DNA of 43,356 bases from Oscillospiraceae bacterium. Its GTDB lineage: Bacteria; Bacillota; Clostridia; Oscillospirales; Ruminococcaceae. Below are positions 2,449 through 31,015 of the stretch, piece by piece. A program made the position numbers and the translations under genes. The stretch covers positions 1 to 43,356 of the forward strand of contig WRME01000002.1 of assembly GCA_009777275.1 (NCBI GenBank), written 5' to 3'. Each line of letters starts with the position of its first letter. Within the stretch, counting starts at the first letter, position 1. The notes beneath the pieces are model-generated. The model saw only the letters and a list, made by a program, of their open reading frames with translations. It was not told where the DNA came from and made no database searches.

Positions 2449-3276
2449 CTATGTAAGTTCAGGGCGTTTTTTATTGACCCCACCAACCAACGACCTCATC
2501 TGCGTAATCGCTGTGTTGTTAAGCTGTACAAGCCGCTCACTCTGCGGCAATCCTTGTCGGATAAGCAGGGCATTAATGCTTTCCATATTTGACAGCACGA
2601 CAAGCTGTTCCAGCGTGGCATAGTCCCGCATATTGCCTGTTTTGTCGGGGTTGCTTGTCCTCCACTGTGCCGCAGTCATTCCGAATAAAGCGACATTCAG
2701 CAAATCGGCTTCGGTGGCGTAAACAAACGCTGTTTGTGCTTTGGTCACCATCTTGGGGATAATCTCTTCTTTGATAGCATCGGTATGTATGCGGTAATTG
2801 ATTTTGGATAGGGTGCGTTGGAGATTCCATTCGAGGGAAACACGGTTGCTTTCGTCTGATTTTAGACGTTGAAACTCCGTTATTAGGTATAACTTGAACT
2901 CCGGAGACAACCATGTTGCAAACTCAAAAGCAATATCTCGATGTGCATATGTTCCTCCATATCGCCCCGGTTTTGCAACAATCCCTACAGCATTAGTCCG
3001 TTCCGTCCATTGTTTTGTGGATAATATAAAGCTGTTGTCTACACTCTCCATTTTAATGTTACCGAATTCGGTAACATTAAAATTCGGGTTATGCAATGTT
3101 TCCCATGCTCCCATGAAGTTTAGCGTATACCCTGTCCTCATCCAATGGGATATGACAATACCTGTAGCATCTGTATTTTTATATTTCGCCATATCGGTCA
3201 GCGATATATAATCATCTGCCTTATGGGTCAGTATTGAAATCGCCGTTCCCTGAACATTTATATTTTCTTTTTTCAA
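2449..3276 (-). CDS. KilA-N domain-containing protein
   Basis: YISLTDMAKYKN...GIVISHWMRTGYTLNFMGAWETLHNPNFN...FILSTKQWTERTNAVGIVAKPGRYGGTYAHRDIAFEFATWLSPEFKLYLITEFQRLK; TTG start after GGAGGG. Confidence 0.9.
   Translation of the reverse strand: MKKENINVQGTAISILTHKADDYISLTDMAKYKNTDATGIVISHWMRTGYTLNFMGAWETLHNPNFNVTEFGNIKMESVDNSFILSTKQWTERTNAVGIVAKPGRYGGTYAHRDIAFEFATWLSPEFKLYLITEFQRLKSDESNRVSLEWNLQRTLSKINYRIHTDAIKEEIIPKMVTKAQTAFVYATEADLLNVALFGMTAAQWRTSNPDKTGNMRDYATLEQLVVLSNMESINALLIRQGLPQSERLVQLNNTAITQMRSLVGGVNKKRPELT
3050..3083. repeat. 34-bp perfect palindrome inside the KilA-N ORF
   Basis: ATTTTAATGTTACCGAATTCGGTAACATTAAAAT is identical to its reverse complement. Confidence 0.95.
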
Positions 3277-3282
3277 TGCCGC

Positions 3283-3436
3283 ACCGTCCCTCCTGCCTTA
3301 ACCTCACCGAATCCCGTGAGGTTAAAATCGGGATTGCTCATCTTCTCCCAAAGTTCCGTCTAACCGACTGGTATCCCATACGGTTAAAATCTGGATTGTT
3401 CATCCGTTCCCAAAGTCCCATATATCCGACTTCAAC
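3283..3436 (-). pseudogene. Two tandem partial KilA-N gene segments in the 5' leader of the KilA-N gene
   Basis: Minus-strand translations GLWERMNNPDFNRMGYQSV and TELWEKMSNPDFNLTGFGEVK match GAWETLHNPNFNVTEFGNIK of the intact gene. Confidence 0.75.
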
Positions 3437-3715: not shown

Positions 3716-4312
3716 CTATTTATCAAATGCCGGATTAAACGCATAGAAATTCTTGCTGTCAAGTTGATCCTGCACAAGCCTGAGAGCTTCGCCGAATCGC
3801 TGAAAATGCACGATTTCCCGCTCCCGCAAGAACTTTATCGGGTCAAGGACATCGGGATCGTCCGCCAATCGGAGTATGTTATCATAGGTAGTGCGTGCTT
3901 TTTGCTCGGCCGCCAAATCCTCGGTAAGGTCTGTTATGGGATCGCCCTTTGACGCAAATGCGTTAGCATCGAAAGGCACTCCCGATGCTGCTATGGTATA
4001 TATTCCCGTTGTGTGATCCACAAAATAGGAGTCGAATCCCGATTTTTTTATCTCATCGATGCTTATCCCTCTGGTAAGCTGATAGACAATCGCGCTGATC
4101 ATCTCCATGTGTCCCAGCTCCTCGGTAGCCACATCGGTCAGGATGCCCTTGACGGCATCATACGGCATTGAGTATCTCTGGCTGAGGTATCGCAGTGAGG
4201 CTCCCAGCTCGCCGTCCGGCCCGCCCAGCTGCGTTATTATCACCTTTGCCATAGCCGGATTGGGGTTGGATATTTTCACGGGGTATTGCAGCTTTTTTTC
4301 ATATGCCCACAT
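3716..4312 (-). CDS. cotJC: Spore coat protein CotJC (manganese catalase family)
   Basis: MWAYEKKLQYPVKISNPNPAMAKVIITQLGGPDGELGASLRYLSQRYSMP...EELGHMEMI; track ORF start trimmed. Confidence 0.93.
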   Translation of the reverse strand: MWAYEKKLQYPVKISNPNPAMAKVIITQLGGPDGELGASLRYLSQRYSMPYDAVKGILTDVATEELGHMEMISAIVYQLTRGISIDEIKKSGFDSYFVDHTTGIYTIAASGVPFDANAFASKGDPITDLTEDLAAEQKARTTYDNILRLADDPDVLDPIKFLREREIVHFQRFGEALRLVQDQLDSKNFYAFNPAFDK

Positions 4313-4314
4313 AA

Positions 4315-4572
4315 TTAATTGGCCTCCTTTTCCCATGGCCACGGACCGTCTATCCATGTCCAGCTTTTTGCCGATTGCGGAAGTGCGTCCATTGTTATAG
4401 GCCCGAATTTTGCGGTATATTCGGCTGTCGCATCAGCGGTGATTTTTTGGTATTTCTTGAAGTATTCCAGCGCCTTTATGTCATACGGATGGGTGTCGAG
4501 AAAGAGCGCCGCATCATTCATGGCAAACTTGGCGGCTCTGATGATTTTTTCCTGCATATGTCTGTCATTCAT
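4315..4572 (-). CDS. cotJB: Spore coat protein CotJB
   Basis: AMNDAALFLDTHPYDIKALEYFKKY...YGPL-like segment...WTWIDGPWPWEKE; lies between cotJA and cotJC. Confidence 0.9.
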   Translation of the reverse strand: MNDRHMQEKIIRAAKFAMNDAALFLDTHPYDIKALEYFKKYQKITADATAEYTAKFGPITMDALPQSAKSWTWIDGPWPWEKEAN

Positions 4573-23332: not shown

Positions 23333-24010
<678 letters not shown>

Positions 24011-24093
24011 TCCTCTATGCGGATAATTCTAATGCAAAAATAATGATTTGTCAATGGTTTTTGCAAAAATATTTCTAAAATATTACAAAAACC

Positions 24094-30328: not shown

Positions 30329-31015
30329 GTGAAAATCAACAACGACACCGATTTTGTTGAGGTCAACAAAATCGTAAAAGCGGGTGCGGCTACAAAGAAA
30401 GTTAAGGATTATGAATTGACCCGATATGCCTGTTATTTGATTGTTCAAAATGGAGATCCACGCAAGGAAGTTATCGCACTCGGTCAAACCTATTTCGCAA
30501 TCCAGACCTATCGGCAGGAGGTAGCAGACCGATTCAACCAGCTTGACGAGGATAATAAACGCCTCGTCATTCGAGGCGATATAAAACAATGGAATCAAAT
30601 GCTTGCAGAAGCGGCACATGATGCCGGAGTTATTACCAATGAAGAATTTGCCGAATTTCAAAATTCGGGATATATGGGTTTATACGGCGGCATGACCGTT
30701 GATGAAATCCACAACAAAAAAGGGTTGGCTGTCCGTGAAAAAATTCTTGATTTTATGGGGAGTGAAGAACTTATCGCTAATTTGTTTCGAATTTCGCAAA
30801 CCGAAAGCAAATTGAAAAGGGAAAACATACAGGGCATTAGTGCGGCAAGCGATGCACATTTTGTGGTCGGGCGTGAGGTTCGTGCCGCTATCAAGCGTGT
30901 CGGCGGCACAATGCCGGAAAATTTGCCAACACCTGAAAAAAGCATTTCGCAAGTTGAGCGTGAACAGCTTAATAAATTAAAAAAACGCAAAAAGCCGCTT
31001 ATGCTTGATGAATGA
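30329..31015 (+). CDS. DinD-like DNA damage-inducible protein, N-terminally short
   Basis: KDYELTRYACYLIVQNGDPRKEVIALGQTYFAIQTYRQE...NSGYMGLYGGMTVDEIHNKKGL...GGTMPENLPTPEKSI. Confidence 0.85.
   Translation: MKINNDTDFVEVNKIVKAGAATKKVKDYELTRYACYLIVQNGDPRKEVIALGQTYFAIQTYRQEVADRFNQLDEDNKRLVIRGDIKQWNQMLAEAAHDAGVITNEEFAEFQNSGYMGLYGGMTVDEIHNKKGLAVREKILDFMGSEELIANLFRISQTESKLKRENIQGISAASDAHFVVGREVRAAIKRVGGTMPENLPTPEKSISQVEREQLNKLKKRKKPLMLDE

Follow-up and report, generated by a model that had tools for sequence, protein, structure and literature searches.

An in-frame DNA palindrome co-varies with the predicted recognition helix of a KilA-N (PDC-S22) candidate defence protein and recurs in phages without the gene

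The window analysed here, a stretch of 43,356 nucleotides from an Oscillospiraceae bacterium, contains a KilA-N gene of the PDC-S22 family whose reading frame carries a perfect DNA palindrome, and this palindrome is confirmed to be real, beyond chance and beyond what the encoded peptide requires. Its variable core, which we term the barcode, changes together with a predicted recognition helix of the encoded protein, and half-sites of the same vocabulary are found in phages. We consider it rather probable that the gene encodes a DNA-reading defence protein, that its own coding sequence carries the self-immunity site, and that phages and rival loci collect barcodes as passes; the binding, inhibition and protection in this reading are what we infer from the sequences. 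The phage-borne copies, which escaped the first-pass annotation of the window, are the main clue to function.

Results

The features of the window (coordinates, strand, description) are as follows.

2449 to 3276, minus strand: KilA-N (PDC-S22) gene, 275 aa, TTG start, with Pfam and PADLOC matches
3050 to 3083, no strand assigned: in-frame 34-bp perfect palindrome with its 30-bp core at 3052-3081; both half-site 7-mers read TGTTACC, the gene's own barcode
3124 to 3168, minus strand: codons of residues 37-51, including the predicted recognition helix (H38-45) that appears to track the barcode (AF2 model, partial correlation, mutual-information peak and helix-barcode table)
3297 to 3356, minus strand: leader copy 2, LWEKMSNPDFNLTGFGEVK, which looks like a truncated KilA-N fragment and has a barcode foreign to the gene; palindrome at 3297-3326, left half CCTCACG, L014/L011 match
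3359 to 3436, minus strand: leader copy 3, YVEVGYMGLWERMNNPDFNRMGYQSVR, which looks like a truncated KilA-N fragment and has a barcode that is likewise foreign and has partly decayed; palindrome at 3359-3388, left half CCGTATG, HMM and L032 match

The gene and its family

The product of the window gene has an N-terminal KilA-N domain, a BstA-like feature, as found by profile search against Pfam (E 8.1e-20), and it is a full-length PDC-S22 protein according to PADLOC (PDLC04962, E 1.9e-130, residues 2-266 of 275), in which this family is listed as a candidate anti-phage defence. The PDC-S22 model was also matched by all 49 aligned homologues, and the only other PADLOC match of the window protein and its homologues was a weak one to PDC-S13. 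Searches of the PDB with the protein sequence and of the E. coli genome with the gene's DNA gave no match, while 281 relatives were found in GTDB genomes. Most carriers are chromosomes and plasmids, with Streptococcus satellites and phages in addition, and in three genomes (L023, L050 and L055) the gene lies beside or inside a type I restriction-modification operon, with HsdM, HsdS/HsdR or N6_Mtase as neighbours. The homologue set used below was drawn from the window gene's own subfamily. Elsewhere in the window, neighbouring genes on the minus strand at 186-974, 1359-2096 and 3716-4357 look by eye like a Spo0A-type regulator, an ImmA/IrrE-like metallopeptidase and a CotJC-like manganese catalase.

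A palindrome conserved beyond the peptide

The first-pass annotation had described three homologous KilA-N segments with different palindromes, and its observations proved accurate: the 34-bp perfect palindrome lies within the KilA-N frame, copy 2 has 10-bp perfect arms around CGAATCCC (3298-3325), and copy 3 has 6-bp outer arms plus TGG/CCA (3361-3386). The encoded peptides are NVTEFGNIK, NLTGFGEVK and NRMGYQSVR for copies 1, 2 and 3, respectively, the leader copies lying in different frames with stops between. In the window gene, the palindrome spans codons 66-75 (FNVTEFGNIK), and the general design is a 30-bp TTTWAN-N6-GAATTC-N6'-NTWAAA over the codons FNxxEFxxIK, with constant ends and centre and a variable core.

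Mirrored arm changes had been proposed to reflect selection on the DNA palindrome within a coding stretch, and this prediction held in all PDC-S22 homologues examined except the clade L085-L087. Among 85 non-redundant homologues from many phyla, the 30-nt core forms 14.22 of 15 pairs on average, against 9.27 when codons are resampled for the same peptides; the peptides permit at most 14.55, and 71% of the homologues are at their maximum. The next best palindrome centre in the gene reaches only 7.4, and the median of the other centres is 3.9. The codons of the conserved residues F/K, N/I and E/F are mutually complementary, so part of the symmetry comes free, and the null must, and does, allow for it. 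An artefact of codon complementarity in a conserved peptide could therefore be rejected, as it accounts for 9.3 of the 15 pairs but not for the remainder.

The amino acids themselves are also involved. When left and right half-peptides were shuffled among genes, the attainable complementarity dropped to 12.73, against 14.55 unshuffled, and no more than 13.07 was reached in 300 shuffles; therefore the residues co-vary in a way that permits the palindrome. Mirrored codons are exact reverse complements in the pairs V/N, S/G, S/A, P/R, P/G, L/E, L/K, I/D, T/G, T/R, M/H and R/T. When changes were placed on a tree from which the site had been left out, double changes from one Watson-Crick pair to another outnumber breaks by 56 to 38 over all pairs and by 55 to 12 in the core pairs alone. 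Moreover, arm covariation was 0.487, compared with 0.156 after shuffling, and none of 500 shuffles was as high. A scan of the window's genome for the palindrome pattern found only the site already known. Other near-palindromes in the window (23334-23363, 23982-24011 and 30347-30376) form 12-13 of 15 pairs and are without the GAATTC design.

Barcode and predicted recognition helix change together

Mutual information between barcode and protein is highest at residues 37-44 and 50, and its mean excess is 0.68 in residues 36-50 compared with 0.25 elsewhere (p = 5e-7, a value that assumes independent columns and serves as a ranking). For 15-residue windows, the partial correlation with the barcode after conditioning on all other residues is 0.66 at residues 37-51, 0.46 in the next region and -0.15 at the median, while the association of the rest of the protein, given residues 36-50, is only 0.05. 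The AlphaFold2 model (pLDDT 86) places a helix at 38-45 after one at 26-30 in a helix-turn-helix-like arrangement. Barcode and helix words go together across genes: GTTA with TG[LI]VISHW, TTCCA mostly with RSDYILQNW, [AG]GCA with RTNYIIQNW, TTATG with FFISDW and CTGG with PADxxKNW. The KilA-N protein thus appears to read its own gene's barcode via residues 37-51, although phylogeny confounds part of this coupling even with the partial correlation. The earlier suggestion of a gene whose product recognises a palindrome lying within its reading frame is in this way supported indirectly, by co-variation with a predicted helix.

The clade L085-L087 has no palindrome in the gene and carries instead one of the same kind, TAAACCCGTCGAAATCGACGGGTTTA, about 20-25 bp before it, and in the helix it has NDLIRNW, similar to DDIIRNW in genes whose barcode is CCCGTC. 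This leader palindrome would be the clade's own site, which fits a need for the site near the gene and not inside it, a view that rests on a single clade.

Leader copies carry foreign barcodes

The two leader copies of the window are 80% identical over 59 bp at a 62-bp spacing, and each is a fragment of about 25 codons that ends just after its own palindrome. Copy 3 is recognised as a KilA-N fragment by HMM search (3344-3430, profile 53-81). Their barcodes correspond to sites in other genes: that of copy 2 to the L014/L011 sites, with 2-3 mismatches in 30, and that of copy 3 to the L032 site, with 3 mismatches in 30. These matching genes are in metagenome-assembled genomes whose isolate codes suggest a termite-gut origin. 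The copies look like remnants of two other KilA-N genes and not like alleles of the window gene.

Similar leaders are found elsewhere. The 600 bp upstream of 132 genes contained 20 further sites, compared with one downstream and none in shuffled sequence. None of these 20 shares a half with its gene's own barcode, while 23 of their 40 halves are the half-site of another KilA-N gene. In four genomes (L051, L055, L060 and L068) the leader sites stand in rows with a 24-bp period and share TTTAAA or its like, two others (L050 and L036) have upstream paralogues cut short a little way past the barcode, and further genomes have leaders with bare palindromes only. A decay series from paralogue to a fragment of about 25 codons to a palindrome is plausible, in which the barcode alone would persist.

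Orphan sites in phages

The IMG/VR records, which are often fragments, were scanned for the constant parts only, and an exact match was demanded, so the counts of orphans are too low. The scan gave 117 sites, with 50 in KilA-N genes, one near such a gene and 66 orphans. A chance motif in viral contigs was ruled out by a control pattern with AAATTT flanks, which had 11 matches with 1-2 of 6 core pairs, while the real pattern had 52 + 65 with up to 6 of 6. Degraded genes were likewise rejected as the source of the orphans: HMM search found PDC-S22 in none of 40 of the 42 whole orphan contigs, and gave weak partial matches in the other two. PDC-S22 was also absent from 13 of 14 named phage genomes, and these 13 complete phages, with S. 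suis phages among them, have the site and lack the gene.

The orphan halves are written in the words of the genes. Exact words of the 57-word gene vocabulary make up 46% of them, compared with 4.3% after shuffling of letters, and by a second measure 35%, compared with 0.4-0.5% for background words of the same contigs. The two halves of a site differ on average at 0.35 of 6 positions in bacterial genes and at 2.03 in orphans, and 22 of the 66 orphans have three or fewer of 6 core pairs, many of these keeping gene half-site words. In a number of orphans the two halves are different gene words, and therefore the half-site looks like the unit. The half CCGTGTC, which the gene of Staphylococcus phage EW also has, is found in IMG/VR in two genes and 19 orphans, 17 of which are CCGTGTC|AGGGGTC. 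The window's own half TGTTACC is present in two chimeric orphans (L200 and L226).

Streptococcus suis offers a natural experiment. Its satellites carry the gene with barcode CTGGTC, its phages phiLP081102, SMP and others carry CTGGTC orphans, and a 35-bp stretch of the satellite gene recurs unchanged at the Javan117 orphan. One intergenic spot in related streptococcal phages is occupied by CTGGTC|CTGGTC, CTGGTC|GGGGTC or CCGTGTC|AGGGGTC, has one half deleted, or has no site. Orphans are mostly intergenic, and their positions vary by phage (after the integrase, after the dUTPase, before the scaffold gene); in several streptococcal phages they stand just before scaffold or capsid genes, which could be a sign of regulation, and in LR1, DW2, PMBT8 and Javan637 they are located elsewhere.

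Two side observations concern the scans. Beside the orphan site of Xanthomonas phage SU1 (OR842880, L295) there are rinB and a SAV0877 homologue; this phage looks staphylococcal, and the host label may be wrong. As well, the design recurs with different core words, TAATCG, TACCCA, AAGCGA and AACTCG, at L107:1744, L122:380, L127:7837, L129:310 and L131:6662; some adjoin divergent KilA-N genes, and the principle may extend to other KilA-N families.

Discussion

Proposed mechanism

In the reading that we favour, the KilA-N (PDC-S22) protein would act as the effector of a defence or competition system that consists of one gene, is found on chromosomes, plasmids, satellites and phages, and works by sequence-specific reading of DNA. 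The protein would read half-sites TTTWAN-N6-GAA through the helix at residues ~37-51, and its cognate site, usually the in-frame palindrome at codons 66-75, might mark the carrier replicon as self or titrate the protein, giving self-immunity. Because this site lies in coding sequence, the arms would change in mirrored pairs and the helix along with them. Other replicons would be protected by carrying the same half-sites: in phages these would be sites between genes, often chimeras that counter two alleles together, and in PDC-S22 loci they would be leader arrays left over from older genes. Phages, on this proposal, gain from sites for the alleles they meet, hence the chimeras, swaps, gains and losses. 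The more far-reaching version combines a defence protein and its DNA antidote in one frame, helices and barcodes that co-evolve into many mutually exclusive self types, half-site passes and a leader fossil record, and to this whole we would give even chances.

Alternative explanations

The most serious rival is an ordinary transcription regulator with palindromic operators, which would autoregulate from the in-gene site by road-block, use the leader sites as operators and have a regulon or immunity circuit among the phage sites. PHROG 2657 is labelled transcriptional regulator, the coupling of helix and barcode suits any sequence-specific binder, and the leader sites are upstream only, where operators would sit too, which counts against the defence reading. 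Nevertheless, the rival does not readily explain the foreign barcodes of the leaders or the chimeric sites of phages without the gene, in which halves for two different proteins are combined at positions that differ from phage to phage, and we regard it as unlikely. For the leader sites, the earlier suggestion of operators has their upstream position in its favour, but with no half shared with the gene's own barcode it is possible but less likely. Control of a helper by a satellite, whose protein would bind helper-phage sites near capsid genes and interfere with or exploit the helper, is less probable again. It accords with the gene in Streptococcus satellites and with the sites before streptococcal scaffold and capsid genes, but most carriers are chromosomes and plasmids, some with the gene in type I restriction-modification operons, sites in four phages are placed otherwise, and the helpers retain and diversify the sites instead of losing them.

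An RNA hairpin acting in mRNA processing, stability or translation control is a very improbable alternative: the sense strand does encode a perfect 12-17-bp stem, but core mismatches have no G-U bias (6 of G-U type, 8 of A-C type), and many orphans are poorly paired, chimeric or intergenic while keeping the half-site words. More improbable still is neutral quasi-palindrome correction, in which template switching would copy arm changes and mirror them in the absence of selection. In its favour, the region is a natural quasi-palindrome owing to the conserved peptide, yet this process leaves unexplained the constant outer and central blocks, the coupling to a distant helix, the relocation to the leader in L085 and the same half-site words in phage orphans. 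An equally faint chance is given to silent cassettes that recombine into the expressed gene and switch its specificity, a proposal of the first-pass annotation that had in its favour the 45-60 bp that the leader copies have in common with the gene. It is not supported: the window's copies are cut off just after the palindrome, have foreign barcodes and no helix-coding part, resemble remnants of other KilA-N genes and bear no sign of exchange; other genomes have bare palindromes, and an arm swap without the helix would uncouple the two.

Comparison with known systems

BstA of prophage BTP1 and its relatives is a KilA-N-like defence protein whose locus includes a cognate DNA element, aba, that protects the prophage from it; aba acts as DNA, and BstA alleles are not interchangeable (Owen et al. 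2021, PMC8585504). By analogy with it, PDC-S22 would work alike, and cognate self-immunity has indirect support from the helix-barcode coupling and from the orphan sites of gene-free phages. The two have in common a KilA-N or KilA-N-like protein, a short DNA element in the gene's own locus (serving allele-specific self-immunity in BstA) and phage defence, which is demonstrated for BstA and candidate for PDC-S22. They differ in that aba is 63 bp long, overlaps the start codon and has no palindrome of the PDC-S22 design, whereas the PDC-S22 site covers codons 66-75 and, in L085-L087, closely precedes the start; PDC-S22 proteins also match another model, and PMC8585504 describes neither a readable barcode or helix code nor copies borne by phages or arrays in leaders. 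The BTP1 aba (63 bp, PMC8585504) has TTTAAC...GGTTAA around GAAAATC, loosely like a half-site pair with other spacing, which may be chance.

The second half of PDC-S22 resembles Rha-family phage proteins (about 31% identity, residues ~126-242). As in the KilA-N/APSES group, the window protein combines a KilA-N domain (Pfam) with a predicted recognition helix (AF2 helices H26-30 and H38-45, coupling at 37-51), and Foldseek found likeness to DdrC (E 1.8e-4) and weakly to Mbp1 (E 0.6), at overall TM-scores of ~0.3 or lower. To our knowledge, neither Mbp1 nor DdrC has its own binding site in its coding sequence. Rows of foreign barcodes in leaders, much like a record of immunity to other alleles, recall the orphan immunity arrays of polymorphic toxins and CRISPR arrays, but the PDC-S22 elements are DNA sites of a protein-binding type and not immunity genes or RNA guides, and no acquisition machinery was seen. 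The literature searched, with bioRxiv and most subscription journals outside its scope, contained no description of the palindrome, of the mechanism of PDC-S22 or of the phage-borne copies.

Significance

The palindrome is an unusually clear case of a protein sequence bent to preserve a DNA palindrome in its own gene. If the proposed mechanism is true, PDC-S22 would represent barcode-based discrimination of self from non-self through protein-DNA recognition, with neither nucleic-acid guides nor DNA modification, and would provide a sequence-readable mechanism by which a DNA-targeting defence spares its carrier, which the work on BstA-aba had left as an open question. It would, moreover, offer a testable protein-to-barcode code for predicting, from nothing but sequence, the PDC-S22 alleles that a given phage should escape, and point to a class of phage anti-defence that consists of only ~30 bp of non-coding DNA and is invisible to gene-based searches.
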